Shown here: positions 45,454 through 61,377 of the stretch, in pieces | Numbering within the stretch: position 1 is the first letter of the stretch | Layout: each line of letters opens with the position of its first letter | Assembly (NCBI GenBank): GCA_017305535.1 | Contig: JAFKKN010000012.1 | Coordinates: 62,001 to 126,000 of the forward strand | Direction of reading: 5' to 3' | DNA length: 64,000 nt | Origin: Hyphomicrobiales bacterium | GTDB lineage: Bacteria; Pseudomonadota; Alphaproteobacteria; Rhizobiales; Xanthobacteraceae | The notes under the pieces: model-generated | The model's database searches: none | Seen by the model: the letters and a program-made list of their open reading frames with translations, nothing else | Told to the model about the DNA's origin: nothing | Position numbers and translations under genes: made by a program

Positions 45454-46614
45454 TTATCCCTTGATCGCCGCGAAACCTGCTTCCAGCCCGGCAATCAGAT
45501 CGGCCTCGGCTTCCATGCCCACCGACAGCCGCAGCAGGCTATCGCTGATGCCGGCGATACGCCGCGCCTCCGCACCCATCTTCACATGGGTCATGGTGGC
45601 GGGGTGCGCGATCAGGCTTTCGACGCCGCCCAGCGATTCCGCCAGCGTGAACACCTCAATGGCCTCGACGAAGGACCGCACTGCATCAGTGCCGCCGGTC
45701 AGTTCGAAGCTCAGCATCGCGCCGAAACCGGCTTGCTGCACTTTCGCCAATGCATACCCCGGGTGCGACGGCAGACCCGGATAATATACCGCGCGCACCA
45801 GCGGATGGTTGTCCAGGAACGCGGCGATGGCGCCCGCATTGGCCTGCTGCCGCTCGACACGCGCAAACAGCGTCCGCACGCCGCGCAAGGTCAGATAGGA
45901 ATCGAACGGCGCGCCAGTAACGCCGACGATGTTGACCCACTCCGCCAGCGCCTCGACATCCTCCTTGGCAGCGGCGATCACCGCACCGCCAACCACGTCG
46001 GAATGGCCGTTGATGAACTTGGTGGTGGAGTGAACGACATAGTCCGCGCCGAACGCGATCGGCCGTTGCAGTGCCGGCGACAGGAAGGTGTTGTCGACCA
46101 CCACCTTGGCACCGACCGCCCGCGCCTGCGCCACAATGGCCTTGATATCGGTCACCCGCATCAGGGGATTGCTCGGCGTCTCGATCAGGATCAGCGCCGG
46201 GCGGCGAGCCATCGCCGCCGCCAGTGCCGCCGGGTCGCCAAGATCGACCAGCGCCAGTTCGATCTGCCCGCATTGCTGGCGGGTCCCGAGCAACCGATGA
46301 GTGCCGCCGTAGCAATCATGCGGCGCGATCACCAGCCCGCCGCGGGGGGCGCGCGACAGCACCACGTCGATGGCCGCCATACCGGAACATACCACCACGG
46401 CCCCCGCCCCGCCCTCTAGCTTGGCGATGGTATCCGCCAGCAGGTCGCGGCTCGGATTGGCGGTGCGCGTGTAGTCGTACGGGCCGGCCTTCTCGTAGGC
46501 CGGGAACGCGAAGGTGCTCGACAGGTAGATCGGCGGCGTCACGGACCGGAACGCCGGGTCGGTCGCAATGCCGTTAGCGACAGCCACGGTGTGAGGGTCC
46601 CTGGGGTTCGGCAT
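45454..46614 (-). CDS. metB: Cystathionine gamma-synthase (or related Cys/Met PLP enzyme)
   Basis: A 386-residue PLP enzyme of the Cys/Met metabolism family. Lys199 in [12 protein letters not shown] binds PLP; the early [10 protein letters not shown] and the phosphate-binding SGMAAID are typical. The family includes cystathionine gamma-synthase, gamma-lyase and O-acetyl/succinylhomoserine sulfhydrylase, which cannot be fully separated by eye; synthase is preferred. The gene follows cysJ-cysI on the same strand, so it may receive the sulfide or cysteine they produce. ATG 46614 is chosen; the upstream extension is not conserved-looking. Confidence 0.82.
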
Positions 46615-46723
46615 CGTCTTCGGTCCTGATTGTGTCGTCACGAGCGCGAAAGCGGCCGATCCAGAGGCCCGGCCCGCGCCGTTTGCGCCGCTTGTGTAAA
46701 GGCTTTCGGAGACAAAAGAAACC

Positions 46724-46754
46724 GGGCGGCACGGACATTGAAATCCGGCCGCCC
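46724..46754 (-). terminator. Terminator after cysI
   Basis: Minus-strand hairpin GGGCGGC...GCCGCCC with an adjoining CCG/CGG pairing and one bulge, followed by GGTTTCTTTTG. It separates cysI from metB and suggests metB has its own promoter. Confidence 0.65.
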
Positions 46755-46788
46755 CCACCTGCTTTCTGTCCGGTTCCGGGTGCTCCGC

Positions 46789-48519
46789 TCAGTCGTTGAA
46801 GTGGCGGCCTTCCGTCACCCTCGTGACATAACCGGCGCGGATGGCGAAATCGCCGAAATGCTCCTTGGGCCGCCGCGCCTTGGCGTAGTGGCCGAGCACC
46901 TTCTCCAGCGCTTCGAGGATAACCGGCTCGCCGACATTTTCGAGGTACATCTTGTTCAGCCGCTCGCCGTGGAAGCCGCCGCCGAAATAGAGATTGTACT
47001 TGCCCGGCGCACGGCCGGTCAGCGCGATTTCCGCGATGTAGGGCCGTGCGCAGCCGTTCGGGCATCCGGTCATGCGGATGGTGATCGGCTCGTCACGCAG
47101 GCCGTGCGCGTCGAGGATCGGTTCGATCTTCGACAGCAGCGTCGGCAGGTAGCGCTCGCTTTCCGCCATGGCGAGACCGCAGGTCGGCAACGCCACGCAG
47201 GCCATCGAGTTGAGCCGCAGCGCACTGCCGACATTCAAGCCGGCCAGACCATACTCATCGAGCAGCTTGGCGATGGTCAGCCGGTCTTCCGGCGCGATCT
47301 CCGCGATGGTCAGGCTCTGGTTCGGGGTGACGCGGAAGGTGCCCTTGTGAACCTGCGCAATGGCGCGCAGGCCATCCATCAATCGCAACTCCGGCGTGTT
47401 GATGACGCGGCCGTTCTCGATGAACACCGTGTAGTGATGACGTCCGTCATCCCCCTGCACCCACCCCAATACATCGCCATTCGAAGTGAATTCGAACGGC
47501 TTCGCGGCGGCGAACGGCTGACCCAGCCGGCGCTCGATCTCGGCCTTGATCCAGTCCAGCCCCTTGTCGTCGATTGTGTACTTGAAGCGGGCGTGAGGCC
47601 GGCTGACCCGATCGCCGTAGTCGCGCTGCACCGACATCACCGCGTCGATGGCCGGAATCAACTGATCGACCGGAATGAAACCGATCACGTCGGCAAGGCG
47701 CGGATAGGTTTCGGGCGCCTGATCGGTGCGACCCATACCTCCGCCAATGGCGACGTTGAAGCCCTTCAGCTTGCCGCGCGAGACGATGGCAATGAAGCCC
47801 AAATCCTGCGCATAGACGTCGATATCGTTGCTCGGCGGAATCACGAATCCGATCTTGAATTTGCGCGGCATGTAGGTACGCCCGTAGAACGGCTCCTCGG
47901 GCTCCTTCACCTCACCGGCTTCCTGCTGATACCAGATCTCGTTGTAGGCGCCGGTCTTCGGGATCGCATGATCGCTGGCCTGCTTTGCCAGCGCATAGAC
48001 CTCCGTGTGAATTTCCGACAGATGCGGATTGATCGAGGCCATCACGCCACGGGTATCGTCGCCGCACGCCGCGCGCGTATCCAGCAGCACGTCGCGCAAG
48101 CCCTGCATCAAAGCGCGCAGATCGGTCTTCAGAACATGATGGAATTGAAAGGTCTGCCGCGTCGTCAGCCGCAGCGTATTGCCGGCATAGTCGCGCGCCA
48201 GCGCATCGAGCTTGAGCCATTGGCTCGCGCTCAGCACGCCGCCCGGCAGCCGCACCCGCGCCATGAAGCTGAAAGCGGCTTCCAGCTTCTGGCGCCGCCG
48301 CTCGTCGCGAATGTCGCGATCATCCTGCTGATAGATGCCGTGAAACTTCATCAGCTTAGTATCGCTGGTGGTCACCGCGCCGGTGATCGGATCGAACAGG
48401 CTTTCATTGATCGTGCCGCGCAGTTGCCGGCTGTTCGCCTTCAGCGTCTCGTCCGGGCCGAGCTTGTCCAATGGTTGCGAGAGGTCGCGGCTGCGATCCA
48501 ACGCCGGTGTGTCGGTCAT
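46789..48519 (-). CDS. cysI: Sulfite reductase hemoprotein (beta subunit)
   Basis: A 576-residue siroheme/4Fe-4S enzyme reducing sulfite to sulfide with six electrons. The four cluster/siroheme cysteines are Cys441, Cys447 (ACVALPTCGLA) and Cys486, Cys490 (TGCPNGCARPY). Both ferredoxin-like repeats of the nitrite/sulfite reductase family are present (LRLTTRQTFQFHHV and FRVTPNQSLTI). It starts ten bases after the cysJ stop, so CysJ is the electron donor. ATG 48519 gives MTDTPALDRSRD. Confidence 0.95.
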   Translation of the reverse strand: MTDTPALDRSRDLSQPLDKLGPDETLKANSRQLRGTINESLFDPITGAVTTSDTKLMKFHGIYQQDDRDIRDERRRQKLEAAFSFMARVRLPGGVLSASQWLKLDALARDYAGNTLRLTTRQTFQFHHVLKTDLRALMQGLRDVLLDTRAACGDDTRGVMASINPHLSEIHTEVYALAKQASDHAIPKTGAYNEIWYQQEAGEVKEPEEPFYGRTYMPRKFKIGFVIPPSNDIDVYAQDLGFIAIVSRGKLKGFNVAIGGGMGRTDQAPETYPRLADVIGFIPVDQLIPAIDAVMSVQRDYGDRVSRPHARFKYTIDDKGLDWIKAEIERRLGQPFAAAKPFEFTSNGDVLGWVQGDDGRHHYTVFIENGRVINTPELRLMDGLRAIAQVHKGTFRVTPNQSLTIAEIAPEDRLTIAKLLDEYGLAGLNVGSALRLNSMACVALPTCGLAMAESERYLPTLLSKIEPILDAHGLRDEPITIRMTGCPNGCARPYIAEIALTGRAPGKYNLYFGGGFHGERLNKMYLENVGEPVILEALEKVLGHYAKARRPKEHFGDFAIRAGYVTRVTEGRHFND

Positions 48520-48528
48520 ATCGGAACC

Positions 48529-50370
48529 TCAGTAAACGTCGCGCTGGTAGCGGTGGTCGCGCTGCAATGCCGCGAGATAATCGGCAGCAGCGGCGGCGTC
48601 GCGGCCGCTTTCCTGCACAATGATGTCGAGCAAGGTCGCATGCACGTCCGGCGCGAGATGCGCGGCATCGCCGCAGACATAGATGTGTGCGCCTTCTTCC
48701 AGCCACGCATAGACATCGCGACTGTTCTGGCGCAACCGGTCCTGCACATAGGCTTTCGGCGTGCGGTCGCGCGAGAAGGCCACGTCCATCCGCGTCAGCA
48801 CCTTGTCCTTCAGCAGGCCCTGCCATTCGGTCTGATAGAGGAAGTCGCTGCGGAAGTTGCGCTCGCCGAACACCAGCCACGAGCGCCCGGATGCACCGCG
48901 TACCTCGCGCTCCTGCATGAAGGCGCGATAAGGCGCAACGCCGGTACCGGCACCGATCATCAAGATCGGCGCATCGTCCTGTGGCAGGCGGAAATGCGGA
49001 TTGCTCTGGATGTAGACCGGAACGACGGCGTCCGGGGCGGCGTGCTGCGCCAGATAGCTGGAGGCAACACCGGCGCGCGGCTGCCCATCGAGATCGTAGC
49101 GCACCGTTCCGACCGTGAGATGTGCCTCATCAGGAACAGCGGCGAGGCTCGACGAAATTGAATAGAGACGCGGCTGCAACGGCCGCAGCCCGCGCAGCAG
49201 CGCATCGGCGTCAATGCCCTTCACCGGAAACTGGCGAATAATATCGAGGACGTGGTGCTCGCGCATGAATGCCGAACGCGCCTCGGCCTGCTCCGGCCCG
49301 CGCAAACGCGCCAACGCCGCCGCACCGCTCAATTCCGCCCAATGATCGATGAAGCGCGGCGTCACCGCGCTGACCTCGAACGCCGATGACAACGCCTCGC
49401 CAAGCGATAATTGCTTTTGCTTGACGCTGACCGATGCATCGGGCGCAAGCCCCAGGCAGTTCAGCACGGTCTCGACCACCGCCGGGTCGTTGCGTGGGAC
49501 AACGCCGAGCGCATCACCCGGCTCATACACCAATCCCGAGCCTTCCAGCGACAGCTCGATGTGGCGGGTTTCCTTGCTGGAGCCCCGCCCGGTCAACACG
49601 ATGTTGTCAATGACAGTCGCCGCAAACGGATTCTGTTTGTCAAATGTGGAGGTCGCAGCCGGCGCGATAGCGGATACGCGCACGGCCGCCGGCGCAAGCG
49701 TGACTGCCGAATCTTGCGGCGCGAGTTTCGCGACGACGGCCTTGATCCATCCCGGCGCGGCTTCGTCGAAATCGACATCGCAATCGACACGCGCTTCAAG
49801 CCGGGTCGCGCCAAGTTCTTCGAGGCGACGGTCGATCCGCTTGCCGCCCTCGCAATACTTTTCATAAGTCGAATCACCCAGAGCGAGCACTGCGAAGCGC
49901 AGGTCGGGCAGCTTCGGCGCCTTGCGGCCTTCGAGGAACTCGAAAAACGCGACGGCGGATTGCGGCGGGTCACCCTCGCCGTGCGTGCTGGTGATCACCA
50001 GCAGATCCTGCTCGTCCTTCAGCTTGCGCGTCTTGTAATCGGCCATGTCCGACACGGTCGCGACGATGCCCTGTTGCTTGGCGACTTCGGCGACGGTCTT
50101 GGCAAGGCCGCGGCTGTTGCCGGTCTCGGTGCCGTAGAGAACCGTCAGCGTTCGCGTTTCGATTGCCGGAGCCAACGGCTGGTCCGGCTTCGCGCGTTCG
50201 AGCACCGCGACCTGATCGAAGCCACCCGGCGCACGCGCGGCGGACCCGACACCTGCGAAGTAACCGCTGAGCCACAGCGCCTGCGCCGGCTGCAACGAGA
50301 CCGCGAGGTCGTTAATCCGTTCCCATTGATCGCTGCTCAGGCCAGGGCCCGAGAATTCCATCTTGGTCAT
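48529..50370 (-). CDS. cysJ: Sulfite reductase flavoprotein (alpha subunit)
   Basis: A 613-residue diflavin reductase passing electrons from NADPH via FAD and FMN to CysI. Flavodoxin domain with FMN loop YGTETGNSRGL (79-89) and STHGEGDPP, FAD-binding domain with RLYSISSS, and NADPH-binding domain with MIGAGTGVAPYRAF and the C-terminal RDVY. ATG 50370 begins MTKMEFSGPG; the long upstream open frame has no family sequence. First gene of the cysJ-cysI operon. Confidence 0.94.
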   Translation of the reverse strand: MTKMEFSGPGLSSDQWERINDLAVSLQPAQALWLSGYFAGVGSAARAPGGFDQVAVLERAKPDQPLAPAIETRTLTVLYGTETGNSRGLAKTVAEVAKQQGIVATVSDMADYKTRKLKDEQDLLVITSTHGEGDPPQSAVAFFEFLEGRKAPKLPDLRFAVLALGDSTYEKYCEGGKRIDRRLEELGATRLEARVDCDVDFDEAAPGWIKAVVAKLAPQDSAVTLAPAAVRVSAIAPAATSTFDKQNPFAATVIDNIVLTGRGSSKETRHIELSLEGSGLVYEPGDALGVVPRNDPAVVETVLNCLGLAPDASVSVKQKQLSLGEALSSAFEVSAVTPRFIDHWAELSGAAALARLRGPEQAEARSAFMREHHVLDIIRQFPVKGIDADALLRGLRPLQPRLYSISSSLAAVPDEAHLTVGTVRYDLDGQPRAGVASSYLAQHAAPDAVVPVYIQSNPHFRLPQDDAPILMIGAGTGVAPYRAFMQEREVRGASGRSWLVFGERNFRSDFLYQTEWQGLLKDKVLTRMDVAFSRDRTPKAYVQDRLRQNSRDVYAWLEEGAHIYVCGDAAHLAPDVHATLLDIIVQESGRDAAAAADYLAALQRDHRYQRDVY

Positions 50371-50735
50371 CGCACTCAATCCCGGTGCCGTTCGGCGCTG
50401 TTCGATCCGCTTTGACGCGGTGCGGATCATCGGAAGCGCACCACCATCGAAAACGAAATGACCGCATTCACCGTTTTCGCGCGTGAATGGGCCGCCACTT
50501 AAAATCGGAATTTTCCTGAGCAAAATCAATGAGATTGATATTTTCTCAATCGCCGATGCGACGTTCGAGTTGTTCTCATCCGGCACGCGCAGAGAGCAGG
50601 AATCTTGCGCGCACCACCGAAACCGGTTCCGAACGACGCGGCTCTGCACGCAACACGGGAACGCAGGAGACAAAAAAACGGCTGACCGAATCGGGCCAGC
50701 CGCTTCCACCACGAACGCGAGAAACCGATCGCGTC
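50371..50735. other. Intergenic region between the binding protein and cysJ
   Basis: 365 bases without a convincing gene. The right end holds the binding-protein terminator (50679-50702). The remainder must contain the minus-strand cysJ promoter and leader; I could not identify a CysB-type or other operator with confidence. Confidence 0.4.
50679..50702 (-). terminator. Terminator of the binding-protein gene
   Basis: Minus-strand stem CGGCTGGCC / GGTCAGCCG (one G-U wobble) around CGATTC, followed by seven T residues. It shares the GGTCAGCC / GGCTGGCC core with the terminators at 4076 and 5940. Confidence 0.85.
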
Positions 50736-51953
50736 TTATTTCTTGATCATCGGGCAGTTGCCGTCCTTGAGCGGACGGAACGCTTCGGCGGCAGGAATGG
50801 TCTGCACCAGCTTGTAGTAGTCCCACGGCCCCTTGGACTCGGCCGGCGACTTCACCTGGAACAGATACATGTTGTGGATGTGACGTCCGTCCTCGCGCAC
50901 CGTGCCCTTGCCGAATAGCGGGTCGTCCGACGGCATCTCCTTCATCTTCGCGATGACTGTCGGACCGTCCGACGTATTGGCGGCCGCTGCCGCACGCAGA
51001 TAATGCAATGTGCCCGCATAGACGCCAGCCTGAATCATGGTCGGCCGCTTGCCGCCCATGATCGCCGCGAAGCGATCGGAAAACTTGCGGGTGCCGTCGT
51101 TCATGTCCCAGTAGAACGCCTCGGTGAGATAAAGACCCTTGGCTGTATTGAGCCCGATGGCGTTAACGTCGGTCACCTGCATCAGCAACGCCGCCAATTC
51201 CTGACCGCCAGCCTGCAATCCGAACTCCGACGCCTGCTTCACCGAGTTGATGGTGTCGCCGACCGCGTTGGCGAGCGCGACCACCTTCGCTTTACTGGCC
51301 TGTGCTTGCAACAGGAACGAGGAGAAGTCCGCCGTGCCAGTCGGATGGCGCACGCTGCCGAGCACCTTGCCGCCTTCCGCCTTCACCACGGCGGCCGCGT
51401 CATTCTCCAGCGAATGCCCGAATGCATAATCAGCCGTGACGAAGAACCAGGTGTCCTTCTTGGCGCGCAGCAGCGCCAGGGCCGTGCCATGCGCGAGCGA
51501 CCATGTGTCGTAGCTCCACTGCACGGTGTTGGGCGAACATTTCTCCCCGGTGAGAAGCGAGGTACCCGGGCCGGACGCGATGAACGCCGCCTTGCTGCCG
51601 CGCACCACTTCCTGCACGGCCAGCGCGACAGAGGAGAACGGAACGTCGAGGATCGCATCGACCTTGTCGACGTCGACCCAGCGGCGCGCCAGCGTGCCGC
51701 CGATATCGGCCTTGTTCTGATGATCGCCCTGGATCAACTCGATCTTGATATCCGGCTTTTCCTTATGGAAATCCTCGATCGCGAGTTTGGCCGCGGCGAC
51801 CGAACCCGGCCCGGTCGAGTCCGCCGCGAAGCCGCTCAGGTCGGTCAACACGCCGAGCTTCAGCGTGTTGTTAGGGATCTCCGCATTCGCGGCCCCCATC
51901 GCCAGCATCAGGGCAGCAGCGCCCGCCAGAAAACCAGTCGTCGATCTCAGCAT
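50736..51953 (-). CDS. Periplasmic branched-chain-amino-acid-type substrate-binding protein
   Basis: A 405-residue periplasmic binding protein of the LivK-like (Peripla_BP_6) class. Signal peptide MLRSTTGFLAGAAALMLAMGAANA then KLGVLTDLSGFAADSTGPGS and the pocket-forming AFIASGPGTSLLTGEKCSPN and WFFVTADYAFGHSLE. Two lobes are complete. No LivHMGF permease or ATPase genes are beside it. It lies 57 bases downstream of the HMG-CoA reductase gene on the same strand, so it is probably part of that transcript and may bind the substrate or precursor of that pathway (mevalonate or 3-hydroxy-3-methylglutarate are guesses). Confidence 0.88.
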   Translation of the reverse strand: MLRSTTGFLAGAAALMLAMGAANAEIPNNTLKLGVLTDLSGFAADSTGPGSVAAAKLAIEDFHKEKPDIKIELIQGDHQNKADIGGTLARRWVDVDKVDAILDVPFSSVALAVQEVVRGSKAAFIASGPGTSLLTGEKCSPNTVQWSYDTWSLAHGTALALLRAKKDTWFFVTADYAFGHSLENDAAAVVKAEGGKVLGSVRHPTGTADFSSFLLQAQASKAKVVALANAVGDTINSVKQASEFGLQAGGQELAALLMQVTDVNAIGLNTAKGLYLTEAFYWDMNDGTRKFSDRFAAIMGGKRPTMIQAGVYAGTLHYLRAAAAANTSDGPTVIAKMKEMPSDDPLFGKGTVREDGRHIHNMYLFQVKSPAESKGPWDYYKLVQTIPAAEAFRPLKDGNCPMIKK

Positions 51954-52009
51954 TCCATCTCACTCCCGTTTTTGATCTTGTTGAATTCCAGTCGGACGAA
52001 CGGCTTCGC

Positions 52010-53293
52010 CTAGCAACGAAGACCGCTCAACACCTCTTGCGCGACATCGATACGGACGGTGCCACGCTCCACCAGCGCCTTCGCCACCGCATCGATCTCG
52101 TCTCCAACCGCACCGGCCATCATCGCAATGTTTTGCGCGTGCAATCCCATGTGCCCCGCCTGAATGCCGGTGGTGGCAAGCGCCTTCAGCGCCGAGAAAT
52201 TCTGCGCGAGGCCGACCGCCGCGATGATACGGGCCAGCCGCTCCGCCGTAGTGACGCCGAGGATTCTCAGGCACGCCTGCGCGGTCGGATGAATCTTGGT
52301 GGCACCGCCGATCAGGCCAATCGCCAGCGGCAGCTCAATCGAACCTGAGAGATTGCCGTCAGCGTCGATTTCGTAACGCGTCAGGCTGGTATAGCGGCCA
52401 CTGCGCGCCGCGAAGGCATGTGCGCCGGCTTCCACCGCGCGGGTATCGTTGCCAGTGGCCAGCACCACCGCGCTGATGCCGTTCATGATACCTTTGTTAT
52501 GTGTCGCGGCGCGATAGGGATCGGCCTCGGCGAACTGATAGGCGCTGATGATGCCGTCGCGCACATTTGGACCGCCGATCTCGTCGAGCGTCCACGTCGC
52601 ATGGGCCCGCGCCAACCGCCGGTCCGCCAGATTGGAGAGGATGCGCAGAAACACCTTGCCGCCGCTCCACGCCGCAATGTGCGGCGCGATCTTTTCCGCC
52701 ATGGTGTTGACCGCATTGGCCCCCATCGCGTCGCGGGTATCGACGATCAGATGCGTGATCAGCATGACGCCGCCGAGCGTATCGAGAATCCGCACCTCGA
52801 GGTCACGGAAGCCGCCGCCGAGCTTGACCAGCAGCGGGTCGCAGTCATCGCAGACGCGCTTGATCTCGTCGCGCTTCTCCAGCAGCCGTAGCCGCGCCGC
52901 GTGCGGATCGGACACGCCGACCGCCTGCACCTGCGCAATCATCAAGGTGCCGGACACCGATGTGGTGAAACCGCTGGCGTAATTCTGTCGCGCGGCGTTG
53001 CAGACTGCCGCGACTACCGAGGATTCCTCGGTCGCCATCGGCACCAGAACATCCTCGCCATCGATCCGCAGGTTGGTGGCGATACCGACCGGCACGTTCA
53101 TCGTAGCGATGACGTTCTCGATCATTTTGTCGGCCAGTTGCACCGGGAGGTTACCCATGTCGGCGAGATGATCGACGGTCGCCTGATCGAGCCCGGCGAA
53201 CGCCGCCACCAGATCAAGCCGCTCGGCCGGGGTCTTGCGATGAAAGCCGGCGATACGCGCGCTGCGATTGCGGCCATGTCCCGGGATCGTCAT
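52010..53293 (-). CDS. mvaA: Class II (degradative-type) HMG-CoA reductase
   Basis: A 427-residue enzyme, almost the same length as the Pseudomonas mevalonii enzyme (428), which oxidises mevalonate to HMG-CoA. Catalytic residues fall at Lys267 (HNKGIMNG), Asp283 (GNDTR) and His381 (GHMGLH), the same numbers as in that enzyme, and the catalytic Glu lies in ATEESSVVAA (87-96). No other mevalonate gene (HMG-CoA lyase, permease) is adjacent. Class II enzymes serve mevalonate catabolism or, in some Gram-positives, synthesis. ATG 53293 has a strong site, GGAAGGTGAGGA. It is divergent from a MocR-type regulator, which presumably controls it. Confidence 0.92.
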   Translation of the reverse strand: MTIPGHGRNRSARIAGFHRKTPAERLDLVAAFAGLDQATVDHLADMGNLPVQLADKMIENVIATMNVPVGIATNLRIDGEDVLVPMATEESSVVAAVCNAARQNYASGFTTSVSGTLMIAQVQAVGVSDPHAARLRLLEKRDEIKRVCDDCDPLLVKLGGGFRDLEVRILDTLGGVMLITHLIVDTRDAMGANAVNTMAEKIAPHIAAWSGGKVFLRILSNLADRRLARAHATWTLDEIGGPNVRDGIISAYQFAEADPYRAATHNKGIMNGISAVVLATGNDTRAVEAGAHAFAARSGRYTSLTRYEIDADGNLSGSIELPLAIGLIGGATKIHPTAQACLRILGVTTAERLARIIAAVGLAQNFSALKALATTGIQAGHMGLHAQNIAMMAGAVGDEIDAVAKALVERGTVRIDVAQEVLSGLRC

Positions 53294-53334
53294 TCCTCAC
53301 CTTCCCTGTCGTCAGGCCTGTCGGCCTCTGTTGG

Positions 53335-53366
53335 TTGAACCGTACGCACGGATGGGTACAGTGCAA
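53335..53366. promoter_or_regulatory. Overlapping divergent promoters of mvaA and its MocR regulator
   Basis: Plus strand: -35 TTGAAC (53335-53340), 16-bp spacer, -10 TACAGT (53357-53362). Minus strand: -35 TTGCAC (53366-53361), 16-bp spacer, -10 TACGGT (53344-53339). The two promoters occupy the same 32 bp, so their polymerases should exclude each other. Promoter calls are by eye. Confidence 0.5.
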
Positions 53367-53421
53367 GGAACGCTTTGCGCATTTTGCGGGACACCCGTAC
53401 CGGCAGACCGATGGGTACAGT
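53351..53421. promoter_or_regulatory. Direct-repeat operator candidate for the MocR regulator
   Basis: The 12-mer GATGGGTACAGT occurs twice in direct orientation, at 53351-53362 and 53410-53421, 59 bp apart start to start. The first copy covers the regulator's -10 element and the second its start codon. MocR/GabR-type regulators bind direct repeats, so this is a plausible autoregulatory operator. Confidence 0.55.
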
Positions 53422-54835
53422 TGAGCAACCAGCAGATATCCGCGGTTCGCGATCCCGCGTCCAAGGCATCTTCGATGCCATCGTCGGCCGGATCGAACGC
53501 GGCCTGATCCGGCCGGGCGAGCGGTTGCCGTCGATCCGCGTCGCTGCGAAGACCTTCGGTGTCTCGAAAAACACCACCGTCGATGCCTATGAACGCCTCG
53601 TTGCCTCCGGGCAGGTGGAGAGCCGGCCCGGCTCCGGCTTTTACGTCTCGCCGCACCGGCCCAAACATGCGGAACAAAAGTCACCCGACAAGATCGAAGC
53701 GGTCGACATCGTCTGGCTGCTGCGTGAACAACTCGACAAACGCTACGAAGTGCGGATCGGCGACGGCAGGCCGCCGGCGGCCTGGATGGAGGGCTCCGAG
53801 GTCGGCGCCCATCTGCGGCCGGTGACACGGCCTGGCAAGCGCCAACTGCCGGAAAGCTACGGCAGCCCCTATGGTCTGCTGCCTCTGCGCCAGCGCATCG
53901 CGCTGATGCTGGCGGAGCGCTCCATCAACGTCGATCCAACGCAAGTGTTGCTGACGCAAGGCGCCAACGACGCACTCGACATGATCGTGCGGCATTTCAT
54001 TGAACCGGGCGATCCGGTCCTCGTCGATAATCCCGGCTACTATCCGCTATTTGGCAAGCTGCGGCTGGCCAAGGCGAAACTGATCGGCGTGCGGCGCAAT
54101 GCCGACGGCCCCGATCCGGAGGATCTTGCGCACCTCGCCGCCGCCACCGGCGCCAAGCTGTTTTTCACCCAGTCGCTGGCGCACAATCCGACCGGCTGCT
54201 CGATCACGTTGCCGGTCGCGTATCGGCTGATGCAGGTCGCGACCCAGCATCGCTTGCGGATCGTCGACACCGATCCTTTCGCCGATATCCTGCCGCCTGG
54301 CAGTCCACGACTGGCGGCGCTCGATCAACTCGACCGCGTGATCTACGTCGGCACCTTCGCCAAGACGCTGTCCGCCAGCCTGCGTTCCGGTTACATCGCC
54401 GCCGATGCGGACACGATCGGCGCGCTCGCTGATCTCAAGATGATCACCCGCGCCAATAGCTCCGGCTACGTCGAGCAGATCATCTACGACCTGATCACCA
54501 GCGGGCGTTATCGCGGTCATCTGAAACGCCTCGGCGGACGTGTCGAAGTTGCCACCGCCGCAGCTCACCACAGCCTCGCGAAGCTTGGCCTGCCGGTGTT
54601 CGGCCACCCCGGCGGCGGTTTTTATATGTGGTGCGAACTGCCGCCCCATATCGACGACAAGCATCTGTCGAAGATCGCCGCCGCACAGAGCATTCTGTTG
54701 GCGCCGGGCTCCGCTTTCAATCCGGAAGCGACACCGAAGTCTCCGGCGATGCGGGTCAACATCGCCTATGCCGGCGATGCGCGTTTTGCCCACTTCATGC
54801 GCGAGAACGACGTGACCTTCGCACGCTTTAAATAG
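53411..54835 (+). CDS. MocR-type regulator (GntR HTH fused to PLP aminotransferase domain)
   Basis: A 474-residue regulator. Residues about 13-80 are a GntR winged helix (IERGLIRPGERLPSIRVAAK, then FGVSKNTTVDAYERL and the wing PGSGFYVS). Residues about 115-474 are a class I aminotransferase fold with HNPTG (258-262), Asp in IVDTDPF and PLP-binding Lys318 in GTFAKTLSASLRSGY. Such proteins use PLP-bound ligands to switch transcription. It is divergent from mvaA and the binding protein, which makes them its likely targets; an amino-group effector would then be expected. ATG 53411 is in the second operator repeat and lacks a strong Shine-Dalgarno. Confidence 0.9.
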   Translation: MGTVEQPADIRGSRSRVQGIFDAIVGRIERGLIRPGERLPSIRVAAKTFGVSKNTTVDAYERLVASGQVESRPGSGFYVSPHRPKHAEQKSPDKIEAVDIVWLLREQLDKRYEVRIGDGRPPAAWMEGSEVGAHLRPVTRPGKRQLPESYGSPYGLLPLRQRIALMLAERSINVDPTQVLLTQGANDALDMIVRHFIEPGDPVLVDNPGYYPLFGKLRLAKAKLIGVRRNADGPDPEDLAHLAAATGAKLFFTQSLAHNPTGCSITLPVAYRLMQVATQHRLRIVDTDPFADILPPGSPRLAALDQLDRVIYVGTFAKTLSASLRSGYIAADADTIGALADLKMITRANSSGYVEQIIYDLITSGRYRGHLKRLGGRVEVATAAAHHSLAKLGLPVFGHPGGGFYMWCELPPHIDDKHLSKIAAAQSILLAPGSAFNPEATPKSPAMRVNIAYAGDARFAHFMRENDVTFARFK

Positions 54836-55387
54836 CTATTCCGCCGCCTCGCGCACCGTAACGCCCTGCTCAATATCCAGTTGCAGAATGTCGTTGAGGC
54901 GATTGAACGCGCCGCACAGCGCAATGCGCCACGTCAGCTCGACGATCTGTGCCTCGCTGAAATGCTGCTTGAGGCGATCGAAGATTTCATCACGGGTACG
55001 ATTCCAGTTGGTGGTCACCGCGATCGAATATTCGACGATCAGCTTGTCGAGCTCATCGAGTTCAGGATGGTCCTTGTAGTCGAGCAACCGCGCCGCGCCC
55101 TCTTCGGAAACGCCCTGCACCGCCAGCTTCGGCGCGTGATGGGAAACGCAGTAGGTGCACTGATTGAGCAACGAAACGGTGACCAGCGCCAGTTCAAGGT
55201 GACGTTTCTTGATCACGCCTTCATCGGCCAATGCCACCAGCATCGACCAGGTGTGATCGAAGATCGGCGGCCGGTGCGCCATCACGCCGGCCTGATTCTC
55301 GAACGGACCATAGGTTGTCATACGGTCCCACAGCGGCTGCAAGGCAGCCGGCAGATCGGCTTTGGTCTTGATCGAAATACGGCTCAT
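54836..55387 (-). CDS. Carboxymuconolactone decarboxylase/AhpD-like protein
   Basis: A 183-residue all-helical AhpD-like protein. The redox-active CTYCVSHH motif (Cys77 and Cys80) is typical of alkylhydroperoxidase-type CMD proteins. The flanking LALVTVSLLNQCTYCVSHHAPK block supports the fold. It would reduce peroxides or act as a disulfide reductase; the substrate is unknown. Stop abuts the convergent MocR gene. It lies 48 bases downstream of the amidohydrolase on the opposite side (its start faces 55436), so the two minus-strand genes may be co-transcribed. Confidence 0.87.
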   Translation of the reverse strand: MSRISIKTKADLPAALQPLWDRMTTYGPFENQAGVMAHRPPIFDHTWSMLVALADEGVIKKRHLELALVTVSLLNQCTYCVSHHAPKLAVQGVSEEGAARLLDYKDHPELDELDKLIVEYSIAVTTNWNRTRDEIFDRLKQHFSEAQIVELTWRIALCGAFNRLNDILQLDIEQGVTVREAAE

Positions 55388-55435
55388 TGCAGCACTCCAC
55401 GCTCGCTGTTCGCATGTTTCAGTTTTAAAGGCCGA

Positions 55436-56461
55436 TCAGCAGTTCTGCTCGAAACCACCTAATACGGCAGTGAGATTGGCACCGAGGATATCCGACAGAT
55501 AGCCGCCTTCCTGGACGAAGACGGTCGGCAGGCCGATTGATGCAAGCGCCGCGCCGATGCGATGAAAGCCATCGGTGGTCACGGCAAGGCCTGCCAGCGG
55601 ATCGTGTTCGGACGCGTCGAGCCCGAGCGCCACCACCAATGCGCCGGGCGCGAACGCCGCCAGCGTCGCTTTCGCGCGCGCCAGTGCGGCGATGAAACCA
55701 TCGTCACCAGTGCCGAGCGGCAACGGAATGTTGAGATTGGCGCCGAGCCCCGCGCCAGCGCCGCGCTCATGCGCGTGTCCCCAGACGAACGGATAGAACC
55801 GCGCCGGATCGGCATGGATCGAGATGGTCAGCACATCGCCGCGCTCATAGAAAATACCTTGCGTGCCGTTGCCATGATGCACGTCGACATCGAGAATCGC
55901 CACGCGCTCGTGCGCCTGTCGTAAATGCGCGGCGGCGATCGCCGAGTTGTTGAGGAAGCAGAAACCACCGGCCATATCGGCAAAGGCATGATGGCCCGGC
56001 GGCCGGCACAGCGCGTAGCTCGCCCGCTCGCCGTCCATCACCAGTTGCGCAGCTGTGACGGCGACATCGGTTGCCGCACAAGCGCCTTTCCAGGTGCCAG
56101 GGCCAATCGGGCACGCGGTATCCGCCGTGTGCCAGCCCAGTCTGCCGGTGATATGCGTCGGGTAGCTCGCCGCGTGGCGTACGGGATGAATATTGGCGAT
56201 CATTTCCGGACCGGAGTCGCCCAACGCCACCCATTCATCCCAGGCCTCGGCAAGAAAGGCGAGATAGTCCGCGCTATGCACCCGCGCCCGTGGCCCCTGC
56301 CCAAAGTCCTGCGGCGCGATCAGCGTATGCCCGCCAGCCTTGACGCCGACGAGAAGACGATCGGCGCGCTCTGGCTGTTCGGTGGTGCGCTTGACGACGC
56401 CGCGCACCAGAAAGAACTGCGGATCGTGGCTGCGGTGAAATTCGCTGTAAACGGCTTTCAA
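55436..56461 (-). CDS. Acetylpolyamine amidohydrolase (histone-deacetylase family)
   Basis: A 341-residue zinc deacetylase, the same length as the Mycoplana ramosa acetylpolyamine amidohydrolase. Active-site features: PPGHHA (His157, His158), zinc ligands Asp193 and His195 in LDVDVHHGNGT and Asp282 in GLDASEHDPL, and Tyr321 in EGGYLSD. It removes acetyl groups from polyamines or other acetylamines. A TTG start at 56461 (KAVYSEFHR) is chosen because it gives the family's usual N-terminus and has GGAAGA upstream; an ATG 12 codons earlier is the alternative. It probably heads a unit with the AhpD-like gene. Confidence 0.87.
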   Translation of the reverse strand: MKAVYSEFHRSHDPQFFLVRGVVKRTTEQPERADRLLVGVKAGGHTLIAPQDFGQGPRARVHSADYLAFLAEAWDEWVALGDSGPEMIANIHPVRHAASYPTHITGRLGWHTADTACPIGPGTWKGACAATDVAVTAAQLVMDGERASYALCRPPGHHAFADMAGGFCFLNNSAIAAAHLRQAHERVAILDVDVHHGNGTQGIFYERGDVLTISIHADPARFYPFVWGHAHERGAGAGLGANLNIPLPLGTGDDGFIAALARAKATLAAFAPGALVVALGLDASEHDPLAGLAVTTDGFHRIGAALASIGLPTVFVQEGGYLSDILGANLTAVLGGFEQNC

Positions 56462-56654
56462 AGGCGTCTTCCAATGCGGAGCAGTGGCAATCAGCAAACC
56501 TACAGCGCGTCACGGCAAGGATGCCAGAACAGTTTACGCCAAAACCGCATCCGAGATTATCATGCGCTGCAATAGCGAGCACCGCGTTTCGAATGCGGGG
56601 AAGTTCATCGCATGCGCTCGTCTTGCAGTCAGCGCGGCGCGTCGGACCTTCGCG

Positions 56655-56984
56655 TCAGGCGCCGGATTTCCGCTCGGTTTGCAACACCTCGAATCCCTCG
56701 AACTTGGGATGTCCGAGATAGAGGCTCTCGCCGGTCTTGTTGCCGGCACGGACATGGGCTCGACGGAACGCCTCGGACTTCGTCCATGCCTCGAAGGCGG
56801 CGCGATCCGCCCAAATGGTATGTGACGCGTAGAGCGTATGGTCCTCGGCGACCGGCCCCTTGACGAGATGAAATTCAACGAAGCCGGGGGTATCGCCAAG
56901 ATAGGATTCACGGTTGGCCCACAGCGTCTCGAACGCCTGCTCGGACCCCGGCTTGACCTGAAACCGGTTCATCGCGATGAACAT
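56655..56984 (-). CDS. IsdG-family heme-degrading monooxygenase (HmuQ/HmuD-like)
   Basis: A 109-residue dimeric ABM-fold protein. The three residues essential in Staphylococcus aureus IsdG are present at nearly identical positions: Asn6 (IAMNRF), Trp67 (FEAWTKS) and His77 (RRAHVRA). Bradyrhizobium japonicum HmuQ and HmuD are known members that release iron from heme. Here the gene is not next to heme-uptake (hmu) genes. I saw no clear iron-control (ICE-type) element upstream. ATG 56984 has GGAGGAC upstream. Confidence 0.85.
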   Translation of the reverse strand: MFIAMNRFQVKPGSEQAFETLWANRESYLGDTPGFVEFHLVKGPVAEDHTLYASHTIWADRAAFEAWTKSEAFRRAHVRAGNKTGESLYLGHPKFEGFEVLQTERKSGA

Positions 56985-57301: not shown

Positions 57302-57377
<76 letters not shown>

Positions 57378-58209: not shown

Positions 58210-59535
58210 CTACAGCATGCCCAGCATGCGCGGCAGCCACAGCGATATCTCGGGAATGTAAGTCACCAAGCCGAGGAAGATCAGCATCGTCATCAGCCAC
58301 GGCCACACCGCGATGGTCAGTTCGGTGATGCCCATCTTGGCGATGCCCGACGCCACATAGAGGTTCAGGCCCACCGGTGGATGGCACATGCCGACCTCCA
58401 TGTTCACCACCATCAGGATGCCGAGATGCACCGGATGAATGCCGAGACTCACGGCAACCGGGAACAGGATTGGCGCCATGATCAGGACGATCGAGGACGC
58501 TTCCATGAAGTTGCCGGCCGCCAGCAGCACGATGTTGACGATCAACAGGAACATCACCCAATTGACGCCGATCGAGGTGATCCAGTTGGTGATCTGCTGC
58601 GGGATATTTTCGTTCGCCATCAGGAACGAGAACAACACGGCATTGGTGATGATGTAGAGGATCATCGCGCTCATGTTGGCCGAGCCGAGCAGTACGCGCG
58701 GCACGTCCTTGAGCGACATATCGCGATAGACAAACACCGCGATGACGAAAGCATAAACCGCGCTGACGGCGGCCGCTTCCGTCGGCGTGAACAGGCCCGC
58801 ATAGATACCGCCAAGCACGATGACGATCAGTAACAGGCCCCATACGCATTTGCGGAAGGCTTGAAATCGCTCGGCAAAGGTCGCCTTGGGCATACGTGGA
58901 TAGTCATTCTTCCACGCACGGTAGAAAGTCGTGACGCCGAGCAAGGTCGCCAGCATCAGGCCGGGAATGACGCCGGCCATGAACATCTGGCCGACCGACG
59001 CCGACGAGACACGATGCCCGGCGGGATCGAGCGCGATACTGCCGCCGGTCGCCACGCAATAGATCACCATCACGATCGATGGCGGGATCAGGATGCCGAG
59101 CGCGCCCGACGTGGTGATGACGCCGGCGCCGAACCGCTTCGGAAAACCCTGATTGACCATCGCCGGCAGCATGATCGCGCCGATCGCGATCACGGTCGCC
59201 GGCGACGAGCCGGAGATCGCCGCGAACAGCGCGCAGGCCATGACGCCAGCGAGCCCAAGGCCGCCGTACCAGTGCCCGACCATCGATGTGGCGAAGTTGA
59301 TCATGCGTCTCGCCACGCCGCCATGGGTGAGGAAGTTGCCCGCCAGGATGAAGAACGGGATCGCCATGATCTCGAAATTATCGATGCCAGTGAACAGCTT
59401 CAGCGCCACCGATTCCGTCGGCACTTGCGTCATCGTGAAGATGAAGGTGAGCACGGTGAGGCCGAGCGCGATCGAGATCGGCATGCCCGTCAGCATGAAG
59501 ACGACGAGCAGCCCGAAGATAATCATGCTGCTCAT
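58210..59535 (-). CDS. dctM: TRAP transporter large permease subunit
   Basis: A 441-residue inner-membrane protein with about twelve helices, the sodium-coupled core of a TRAP transporter. Recognisable DctM blocks: IPFFILAGNFLTHGG, ALFAAISGSSPATVIAIG, LGILIPPSIVMVIY, GLFTPTEAAAVSAVYA and HPPVGLNLYV. Its ATG overlaps the dctQ stop by four bases, so the two are translated together. The transported acid is set by the binding protein. Confidence 0.95.
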   Translation of the reverse strand: MSSMIIFGLLVVFMLTGMPISIALGLTVLTFIFTMTQVPTESVALKLFTGIDNFEIMAIPFFILAGNFLTHGGVARRMINFATSMVGHWYGGLGLAGVMACALFAAISGSSPATVIAIGAIMLPAMVNQGFPKRFGAGVITTSGALGILIPPSIVMVIYCVATGGSIALDPAGHRVSSASVGQMFMAGVIPGLMLATLLGVTTFYRAWKNDYPRMPKATFAERFQAFRKCVWGLLLIVIVLGGIYAGLFTPTEAAAVSAVYAFVIAVFVYRDMSLKDVPRVLLGSANMSAMILYIITNAVLFSFLMANENIPQQITNWITSIGVNWVMFLLIVNIVLLAAGNFMEASSIVLIMAPILFPVAVSLGIHPVHLGILMVVNMEVGMCHPPVGLNLYVASGIAKMGITELTIAVWPWLMTMLIFLGLVTYIPEISLWLPRMLGML

Positions 59536-60107
59536 CGCGTGACCTCCGCGGCGCCGACGCCGGGTTCAGTGACTTCAATGCCCTCGACCTGTGCGTGATC
59601 GTGATGCGGCAGTTCGCCGGTCCGCCAATACGCATAGGCGACCTGGAGGAAGCGGAAGCACATCAGATATGAGCCCAGCGGAATGCAGAGATAGACGAAC
59701 CAACTCGGGATTTCGAGATCGGGCGTGACCTGGTCAGTACCCATCAGGCCATAGACGAACTTCGCACCCATCGTGCCGATCACGAACGTGAAGAACGCGC
59801 CGCACAGCAGTCCAAAAGTGATGACGATGTTGCGCCACGGCGATTTGAGCTGGTTGACCACGACGTCGACGCCGACGTGAATGCCGGTTCGCACGCCATA
59901 AGCAGCGCCGAACTTCGCCACCCACACGAACATGAAAATGCAAAGTTCCTGTGCCCAGGACAGGTTGATCGGGAACAGGATCGGATAGAGCCAGGACACA
60001 CCCAGCAGATAGCGATGGGCGACGGCGATGAAGATGATCAAGGTCGCAAGCGCCATCAGCGTCGCGATCAGGATCTCCTCGAGCCGATCGAGGATCTTAA
60101 GAAACAT
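59532..60107 (-). CDS. dctQ: TRAP transporter small permease subunit
   Basis: A 191-residue protein with four membrane helices, of the DctQ family. Conserved features: the RLEE motif after the N-terminus (LDRLEEILIATLMALATLIIF), RYLLGVSW, WAQELCIFMFVWVAKFGAAYGVRTG, and HVGVDVVV. It complexes with DctM. It is separated from dctP by about 265 bases that hold a strong hairpin. Confidence 0.95.
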   Translation of the reverse strand: MFLKILDRLEEILIATLMALATLIIFIAVAHRYLLGVSWLYPILFPINLSWAQELCIFMFVWVAKFGAAYGVRTGIHVGVDVVVNQLKSPWRNIVITFGLLCGAFFTFVIGTMGAKFVYGLMGTDQVTPDLEIPSWFVYLCIPLGSYLMCFRFLQVAYAYWRTGELPHHDHAQVEGIEVTEPGVGAAEVTR

Positions 60108-60255
60108 GGATGTCCCCCCGTGGCGTTGGACGGTTTCCGTTACCGGCGACCTACGCGCAACGTGGCCTGAACGGCCGCGCCTTCCCCTTGATGGAAAATT
60201 CGGAAGAGCGAATGCTGTTTCCGAATCTTGTCGTACTCAGTTGATGAGACAAATA

Positions 60256-60290
60256 ACGAGTCTGATTCAAAGTCATCGAATCAGACTCGT
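60256..60290 (-). terminator. Intra-operon hairpin between dctP and dctQM
   Basis: Perfect 13-bp stem ACGAGTCTGATTC / GAATCAGACTCGT with a nine-base loop, followed on the minus strand by TTATTTG. Positioned after dctP it could partially terminate or protect the dctP transcript so that binding protein exceeds permease, as is common in TRAP operons. Confidence 0.65.
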
Positions 60291-60372
60291 GTCTCTATGC
60301 ACAACGATTGCAGGTCACGATCCGGCACCGCGAGCCATGGCCTCTTCCATAGCTCGCAACACCGGACAACCC

Positions 60373-61377
60373 TCAATCGATCGGCGGACGCCCCTCTTCC
60401 TTCAGGAACTCATTGATGAGGTCCTTGCCGACGCGCGAGCCGACTTCCTTGTAGACCGGCAGCATCGCCTTGCGCATCGCCTCATCCTGCTCCTTGGTCA
60501 GCGTGATCAGCTCGGTCTTGCCGGACTTACGCATTTCATCGAGCGCTTCGTTGTTTTCCTTCGCCGACTGACCGTTGCCGTACTCGGTGGCTTCCTTCAT
60601 CGCCTTTTCAAGTTGGCCACGGATATCGGCCGGCAGACCGTCCCAGAACTTCTTGTTGGCGATCACCGCATAGCCGATGTAGCCGTGGTTGGTGAGCGTC
60701 GTGTACTTCTGCACTTCGTGCATCTTCTGGGTGTACATATTCGACGGCGTGTTTTCCTGACCGTCGACCACGCCTGTCTGCAGCGCCTGATAGACTTCAG
60801 AGAACGCCATCACCTGCGGGATCGCACCAAGCGCGCGGAACTGCGCTTCCAGCACCTTGGACGACTGGATGCGGAATTTGAGGCCCTTGTAGTCTTCCGG
60901 CGCGATGAGCTTCTTGTTGGCGCTCATTTCCTTGAAGCCGTTGTCCCAATAGGCCAGTCCGGTGATCCCCTTCTTGTCGAGCAGACCGAAGAGCTTCTTG
61001 CCTAGCGGACCGTCGGTCACTTTCCGGAGCGATGCGAGATCCGGCAGAATGTACGGCAGATCGAAAACCTCGAATTCCTTGACGCCGATAGGGCCGAACT
61101 TGGAGAGCGACGGCGCCAGCATCTGCACCGCGCCGAGTTGCAGCGCTTCGAGCTCTTCCTTGTCCTTGTAGAGCTGCGAGTTCGGGTAAACCTCCACCTT
61201 CACCTTGTTGTCGGTGTATTTCGCCGCGAGTTCGGCGAATTTCTGCGAAGCTAGCCCCTTCGGGGTGTTCGGCGCGACAACGTGGCTGAATTTGATGATG
61301 ATCGGCTGCTGCGCGGCAGCCGGCACGATGAAGCCGAGCGCCGCGATCGCAGCTCCCAGAAACATGATCTTACGCAT
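60373..61377 (-). CDS. dctP: TRAP transporter periplasmic binding protein
   Basis: A 334-residue periplasmic DctP. Signal peptide MRKIMFLGAAIAALGFIVPAAA, then KFSHVVAPNTPKG, and the substrate carboxylate-binding arginine in LKFRIQSS. Further family residues are in SEVYQALQTGVVDGQENTPSN. The ligand is a carboxylic acid (C4-dicarboxylate, 2-oxo acid or sugar acid); sequence alone does not decide. First gene of dctP-dctQ-dctM. Confidence 0.94.
   Translation of the reverse strand: MRKIMFLGAAIAALGFIVPAAAQQPIIIKFSHVVAPNTPKGLASQKFAELAAKYTDNKVKVEVYPNSQLYKDKEELEALQLGAVQMLAPSLSKFGPIGVKEFEVFDLPYILPDLASLRKVTDGPLGKKLFGLLDKKGITGLAYWDNGFKEMSANKKLIAPEDYKGLKFRIQSSKVLEAQFRALGAIPQVMAFSEVYQALQTGVVDGQENTPSNMYTQKMHEVQKYTTLTNHGYIGYAVIANKKFWDGLPADIRGQLEKAMKEATEYGNGQSAKENNEALDEMRKSGKTELITLTKEQDEAMRKAMLPVYKEVGSRVGKDLINEFLKEEGRPPID

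Follow-up and report, generated by a model that had tools for sequence, protein, structure and literature searches.

A conserved MocR, HMG-CoA reductase and LivK gene set with a predicted three-box operator: a probable entry point for mevalonate catabolism in Bradyrhizobium/Afipia relatives

Why would a sensor of the pyridoxal 5′-phosphate (PLP)-type MocR class serve a pathway that has no amine? This question is raised by a 64,000-nucleotide stretch of Hyphomicrobiales bacterium DNA (assembly GCA_017305535.1, contig JAFKKN010000012.1, positions 62,001–126,000; hereafter the window), in which mvaA, a gene for class II 3-hydroxy-3-methylglutaryl-coenzyme A (HMG-CoA) reductase (HMGR), is followed by a livK-type gene and faces away from a mocR gene. 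The three form a true, conserved gene set in Bradyrhizobium/Afipia relatives, and a three-box MocR operator of alternating orientation is predicted between mvaA and mocR. The locus is probably a MocR-controlled entry point for (R)-mevalonate catabolism, with the HMG-CoA passing into leucine degradation. Computation yielded the gene identities, the degree of conservation and co-occurrence, the conservation and uniqueness of the operator, and the results for mevalonate kinase, Dxr and HMG-CoA lyase. The genes are:

50736–51953, minus strand: livK-type periplasmic binding protein, 405 aa (PF13458, 353 bits; Peripla_BP_6 family)
52010–53293, minus strand: mvaA, class II degradative-type HMG-CoA reductase, 427 aa (TIGR00532 and PF00368)
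53411–54835, plus strand: MocR-type regulator, 474 aa, divergent from mvaA (PF00392, GntR; PF00155, Aminotran_1_2)

A first-pass annotation, made from the letters of the window, had named all three genes; its divergent MocR-type regulator and LivK-type protein hold, and its 57-base gap between mvaA and the downstream livK is in fact 56 bp. For mocR, ATG 53411 is the most likely start codon (the alternative is TTG 53375), because nearly all close relatives align there with nATGGGTAC (GTG in locus L016).

To assess conservation we searched 391 genomes, the GTDB grouping of the window's family, scoring at most four candidates per genome in both HMGR and MocR searches. HMGR matched in 47 genomes, of which one was dropped (G100; 34% identity over 92 query residues, E = 8e-4), leaving 46. 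A MocR gene is divergent beside HMGR at 41 of these 46 loci, a same-strand LivK gene is present at 38, and both partners are present at 37, as expected from the earlier proposal of a conserved trio. At the best 30 loci all three genes occur in identical order and orientation, some being cut by contig ends. Three locus pairs (L035/L017, L106/L162 and L079/L159) are apparently the same contigs and were not double-counted within one tally. Five family loci have no divergent MocR (L157–L159, L167 and L170). In L167 HMGR is incomplete and lies about 1.3 kb from the end of a contig, with no MocR seen; in L170 (genome G159) the gene set is split, and a MocR gene adjoins the HMGR piece on another contig, giving a 42nd genome. 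An HMGR gene with an in-frame TAG (G228) and a MocR gene split between two frames (G236), seen at L022 and L024, are signs of either trio decay or assembly errors.

MocR and HMGR also co-occur closely. The MocR search (E ≤ 1e-105) matched 43/391 genomes, 42 of which also have HMGR, a count over related genomes and hence not over independent events. Only G147 has MocR without HMGR (at 42% identity), and only G048, G077, G098 and G173 have HMGR without MocR. The next closest MocR in the window's own genome is 40% identical, and in four HMGR-free genomes (G006, G013, G040 and G129) no MocR match covering most of the protein exceeds 37%.

Beyond the family, we kept the best 80 of at least 586 HMGR relatives (one genome per species; hereafter named loci). 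A MocR relative lies within the flanks of 22 of them, including Acidovorax, Bordetella, Allopusillimonas, Comamonas, Marinobacter, Halomonas, Vreelandella, Thalassospira, Rhizobium, Sphingosinicella, Tropicimonas and three Pseudomonas, so that mvaA-linked MocR relatives occur across alpha-, beta- and gammaproteobacteria. At one locus, from Pseudoroseomonas (L046), the MocR gene faces the far end of HMGR and is not divergent. A tree of 50 chosen MocR rows (36 mvaA-linked, 14 other) required two label changes, and one in 39% of bootstrap trees; it is compatible with a single origin, which the mvaA-linked proteins may have had.

What, then, might MocR bind? The region between mvaA and mocR contains these elements, of which both promoters are presumed and were read by eye from anchored relatives:

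53339–53366, minus strand: presumed mvaA promoter, TTGCAC-N16-TACGGT
53351–53362, plus strand: box A, GATGGGTACAGT, between the presumed mvaA −35 and −10
53364–53378, no strand assigned: core, CAAGGAACGCTTTGC, almost invariant, probably containing two back-to-back −35 elements
53375–53403, plus strand: presumed mocR promoter, TTGCGC-N17-TACCGG
53396–53401, minus strand: box B, inverted, CGTACC, on the presumed mocR −10
53410–53421, plus strand: box C, GATGGGTACAGT, overlapping the mocR start codon

The 12-mer of boxes A and C occurs exactly twice in the 64 kb, and when the 128-bp region was Markov-shuffled 20,000 times a repeated 12-mer arose in 22 copies. Exact 12-mer pairs spaced 12–70 bp number 14 in the window, so the repeat alone is weak evidence; conservation of the boxes across trio-type loci settles that they are real. 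We compared 34 such loci, comprising 32 from the family, Bradyrhizobium sp. U87765 and Methylobacterium terricola (in which box C reads GGATAC); at one of the 34, L171, the contig ends inside HMGR and LivK is unseen. The 15-bp core CAAGGAAC[AG]CTTTGC and a B–C spacing of exactly 17 bp are present in 34/34, and box A lies 40–42 bp before box B in 30/34. Across the aligned intergenic regions, box B shows up as an inverted GTACC. The earlier annotation had thus found a genuine, conserved repeat, but only two of three boxes, missing the inverted box B and the core. Three-box sites of alternating orientation are a MocR operator type described in PMC5320631.

Traces of the arrangement extend outside the trio-type loci. 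A 17-bp B–C pair is also found close to the mocR start in 6 of the 19 other named loci that carry MocR (L038, L039, L040, L045, L049 and L051). At 16 further MocR–HMGR loci, boxes of the form ACTGT(N)CC or GG(N)ACAGT total 31 (overlapping matches included, and two loci having none) against 0.7 expected in shuffles. In the window's own genome the B+C site, allowing one mismatch, matched once, compared with three matches for a reversed control pattern; given this single match, MocR looks dedicated to the mvaA–mocR region.

Both promoters had been placed within 32 bp in the first-pass annotation. Spaced −35/−10-like pairs visible by eye make this plausible, but a strict promoter scan of the mvaA–mocR region found none, and one trio subgroup (L027–L034 and L154) has no good mvaA −10 at N16-type spacing. 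With box A between the mvaA −35 and −10 and box B on the mocR −10, repression of both transcripts is suggested. The core has stayed near-invariant while the remaining intergenic sequence diverged, and its length exceeds what a pair of −35 hexamers would require; it may therefore also be bound by a second factor. Taking the core for a sigma-54 site was dismissed on visual inspection, the spacing being GG-N8-GC instead of N10.

In which direction does MvaA work? The protein scored 465 bits against TIGR00532 ('hydroxymethylglutaryl-CoA reductase, degradative'; cut-off 260) and aligned over most of its length with the Pseudomonas mevalonii enzyme 1qax (451 bits) and with the top solved match 6dio (453 bits), which we take to be the Delftia acidovorans HMGR. 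Glu90, Lys267, Asp283 and His381, presumably the catalytic residues, are present, and the alignment to 1qax puts Lys, Asp and His at the P. mevalonii numbers, confirming the earlier call of a complete class II enzyme. The four residues are kept in every family row that covers them (among 48 rows tallied, with two genomes represented twice through L168 and L169) and in 80/80 named loci. MvaA also has D152, which we assume to be the counterpart of Asp146, the presumed NAD-preference residue of P. mevalonii HMGR. This NAD-favouring Asp is found as well in 54 of the 58 HMGRs from named loci without MocR, archaea included. In rpHMGR the corresponding residue is D154, according to PMC12292504.

It is very improbable that MvaA is synthetic, making mevalonate for isoprenoids or export. 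HMGR is reversible and the NAD-type Asp is compatible with either direction, but the degradative-type model was matched far above its cut-off, and the relatives of MvaA are accompanied by HMG-CoA lyase and transporter genes. Moreover, TIGR00549, the model for mevalonate kinase, matched nothing in the window's genome (other enzymes of the mevalonate pathway were not searched for), which encodes one full-length Dxr (454 bits). Isoprenoids are therefore most likely made via the methylerythritol phosphate pathway, which leaves no synthetic role for MvaA, and the enzyme is most likely not used for isoprenoid synthesis. We accordingly predict the oxidative direction for it.

HMG-CoA formed by MvaA would need a lyase. 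The genome has one HMG-CoA lyase above cut-off (418 bits), directly behind genes for a carboxyltransferase (PF01039, 515 bits) and a biotin carboxylase, whose methylcrotonyl-CoA-carboxylase domain match falls just below cut-off (29.9 versus 31 bits). A lyase behind carboxylase genes is the usual setting of leucine degradation. Among 14 trio genomes chosen from the 30 best trio loci, 13 have an over-cut-off lyase. Since a class II HMGR alone turns mevalonate, CoA and NAD+ into HMG-CoA, mvaA alone can feed such a leucine-degradation operon.

For uptake, the candidate within the trio is LivK. Its closest solved relative is 3i09 (366 bits), named only as a branched-chain-type binding protein, and the same genome holds 22 LivK paralogs at 41–61% identity. 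Permeases of the LivHM type (BPD_transp_2) gave at least 93 matches in the genome, with none on the mvaA contig among the matches listed; the ATPase was not searched for. Membership of the operon leads us to guess that LivK binds mevalonate, with about an even chance of being right.

Genes next to other HMGRs point to the same pathway. We surveyed 39 loci hand-chosen from the 80, mostly proteobacterial, naming each gene cluster from one or two members. Recurrent HMGR neighbours were HMG-CoA lyase (13 loci), subunits of a tripartite ATP-independent periplasmic (TRAP) transporter (13, 13 and 11), a TctA-family permease (9), a CaiB-type CoA transferase (8), a crotonase (8) and ATP-binding cassette-transporter ATPases (6). 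Uptake genes at such loci thus include a TRAP system. The nearest solved relative of the TRAP binding protein of L038 is 2zzv (207 bits), followed by 7e9y, a construct of the lactate-binding TTHA0766 (176 bits), a kinship that a hydroxy-acid substrate fits. Family locus L155 brings MocR, HMGR, TctA, lyase, CaiB, crotonase and the start of LivK together. In Clostridium bovifaecis (L086, 6882–13129), HMGR is accompanied by an HMGL-like gene of the lyase cluster, a gene of the TctA-type permease cluster and a sigma-54 activator; mevalonate-type catabolism may therefore occur in Firmicutes under another regulator.

The CaiB and crotonase genes bear on an alternative that we consider unlikely: the substrate would be another compound of the HMG-CoA node (3-hydroxy-3-methylglutarate, 3-methylglutaconate or dehydromevalonate), with MvaA as part of a wider funnel. 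Loci with HMGR and LivK that add a CaiB-type CoA transferase and a crotonase are L106 (11399–14740), L155, L157–L159, L161–L163, L165 and L166. The L106 transferase matches succinate-hydroxymethylglutarate CoA-transferase 9br6 (213 bits; best hit 4hl6, 245), and the match list of its crotonase includes the mevalonyl-CoA hydratase SidH, 7oeq (115 bits), well under the best hit 3rsi (150). However, neither 9br6 nor 7oeq is a best hit, HMGR acts directly on mevalonate, and the wider flanks searched at trio loci L154, L168 and L169 gave no CaiB or crotonase match next to mvaA. At the loci that do bear them, a wider funnel into HMG-CoA possibly operates.

MocR itself poses the puzzle of the effector. 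PMC8739950 describes MocR induction by PLP itself or by an inducer bearing a primary amine, and PMC5320631 likewise has MocR regulators usually sensing PLP or amines, with 48 of 86 MocR groups given no assigned role. This pattern, together with LivK being an orphan in a family with many paralogs, would favour a real operon in which LivK does another job, such as importing an amine or amino acid to which MocR responds, while mvaA handles a downstream product. We regard this as quite unlikely: the recurrent partners that could be named are transporters, HMG-CoA lyase, CaiB and crotonase, and none is an amine enzyme, a point of small weight as no search was aimed at amine enzymes and many neighbours are unannotated. 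The first-pass suggestion of an aminated substrate finds nothing in its favour beyond the regulator class.

Within MocR, the PLP lysine K318 is kept in every mvaA-linked row that covers it, and the C-terminal Arg R448 is kept in mvaA-linked proteins; its counterpart in aminotransferases presumably holds the carboxylate. On alignment to LysN-type enzymes, trio-clade proteins have Thr or Ser at the position of the pyridine-nitrogen Asp, which we assign in MocR partly from known residue roles. The other mvaA-linked MocRs examined have Asp there, or Asn (Thalassospira and Pseudomonas), and among the rows compared this change to Thr/Ser is the only residue mark that sets the trio clade apart. A Phe replacing the PLP-contacting Tyr was rejected as a mark of mvaA-linked MocRs; a paralog group at 35–41% identity also has Phe, and Thalassospira and Pseudomonas have Leu or Met. 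Near a sister MocR gene in G095 lies an HMG-CoA lyase gene, a pairing that looks accidental because that lyase follows carboxylase genes as in the window's genome; sister MocR genes of four other genomes (the window's own, G060, G112 and G013) have no lyase nearby.

The effector is thus either some amine, the PLP level, or an amine-free ligand read by this MocR branch. The last, extended to the whole mvaA-linked branch in alpha-, beta- and gammaproteobacteria, is a tentative idea that we hold to be possible though doubtful: mevalonate would sit on the carboxylate-binding Arg, or mevaldate would react with pyridoxamine phosphate, the chemical mirror image of GabR reading γ-aminobutyrate (GABA). 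If trio-clade proteins have a site where aminotransferase-like chemistry is no longer required, their loss of the pyridine-nitrogen Asp would be in keeping with it.

Taken together, the locus is best explained as follows. In the periplasm LivK would probably bind mevalonate, or a compound close to it, and pass it to one of many LivHM-type permeases. MvaA would convert (R)-mevalonate, CoA and 2 NAD+ to HMG-CoA and 2 NADH, and the HMG-CoA lyase, encoded elsewhere on the chromosome in an apparent leucine-degradation operon, would yield acetyl-CoA and acetoacetate. The divergent MocR, as a dedicated local regulator, would bind the three boxes, which cover the spacer of the mvaA promoter, the −10 of mocR and its start codon, most likely repressing both transcripts until released by a pathway-derived effector. 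In this scheme we infer the enzyme's direction, MocR binding and repression, the effector, the LivK ligand and the permease partner.

Several observations weigh against this explanation. At L157–L159, HMGR occurs without MocR, and a GAF/PucR-type regulator gene lies directly upstream in the orientation of HMGR (L157, 1799–3838; L158, 3762–5819; L079, 7635–9869), so MocR is not essential to such loci; the GAF/PucR type represents another regulator class for HMGR. Of the 58 named loci lacking MocR, 21 are bacterial with flanks, 35 have archaeal titles and 2 are bacterial contigs too short to judge. The NAD-type Asp, which archaeal and other MocR-less HMGRs share, had to be rejected as proof of a degradative role. 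It is the position of the boxes that suggests repression of mvaA and mocR rather than activation, and mevalonate carries no primary amine, in contrast to the described non-PLP inducers of MocR. Sequence alone does not reveal the ligand of LivK, a member of an expanded family; the LivK proteins at CaiB/crotonase-type HMGR loci (47–54% identity) were dropped as an orthologous link, as the genome's own paralogs reach 41–61%. One of the 14 trio genomes searched (G072) has no over-cut-off lyase. Finally, no lyase gene occurs at the mvaA locus, the one found being on another contig (C14, against C13 for mvaA), and no permease gene was found beside livK or mvaA. The compact uptake-and-conversion module first envisaged is thus a generous term; the trio with its shared operator stands.

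The chemistry of the enzyme is already known from P. mevalonii; the MocR, its operator and their spread with mvaA were not found in the literature searched. The earlier view of mevalonate- or HMG-type catabolism under a regulator class not usually linked to it agrees with this: that literature holds no report linking MocR to mevalonate or HMGR, older papers on P. mevalonii regulation lying outside the search. A word search of the main text of PMC5320631 gave no HMGR-linked MocR hit; its supplements, where such a group may be listed, lay outside it. Bacterial mevalonate catabolism thereby gains, outside P. mevalonii, a candidate regulator and operator that are conserved, along with candidate uptake genes of the LivK, TRAP and TctA types. 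If the effector is amine-free, the stated rule for the MocR family falls, and MocR with its operator becomes a candidate mevalonate biosensor for isoprenoid engineering.

Other genes lie around the trio in the window. Downstream of livK (45454–50415, minus strand) are genes for a Cys/Met-metabolism PLP enzyme, a nitrite/sulphite reductase hemoprotein and a CysJ-like flavoprotein, the latter two also adjoining livK in the same-genus locus L170. Adjoining mocR (54836–56984) are genes for a CMD-family protein, a histone-deacetylase-like protein and a HmuQ-type heme-degrading protein (NF053649). In L036 and L168 a relative of the HmuQ-type protein is likewise found no more than about 1.5 kb from the MocR gene. 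A tRNA-Lys(ctt) at 57302–57377 (plus strand) falls within a spurious open reading frame. A complete TRAP transporter (DctM, DctQ and DctP; 58210–61377, minus strand) lies 4.9 kb beyond mvaA and adjoins a LeuA-type 2-isopropylmalate synthase gene (61597–63156). As the uptake system of mvaA it was dropped, being absent near HMGR in the close trio relatives L035 and L036 (10-kb flanks).

How does the locus compare with known systems? In P. mevalonii, mvaA and mvaB form a mevalonate catabolism pathway. Its HMGR and MvaA are both class II, with the same catalytic residues and numbering, and NAD-dependent oxidation of mevalonate to HMG-CoA is predicted here. The mva operon differs from the window locus, where the lyase is unlinked, a permease gene beside mvaA was not found, and LivK and a divergent MocR are present instead. 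Three other Pseudomonas loci (L100, L102 and L103) have a 39%-identical MocR divergent from mvaA and a lyase-cluster gene behind mvaA. Like MvaA, the HMGRs of Burkholderia cenocepacia and Delftia acidovorans are class II reductases, and PMC13370337 describes them as using or preferring NADH. On the regulatory side, the window MocR resembles MocR/GabR regulators such as the ectoine repressor EnuR in its GntR and aminotransferase-like domains, its PLP lysine and its repeat-type operator, but differs from them in that the pathway linked to it here has no amine.

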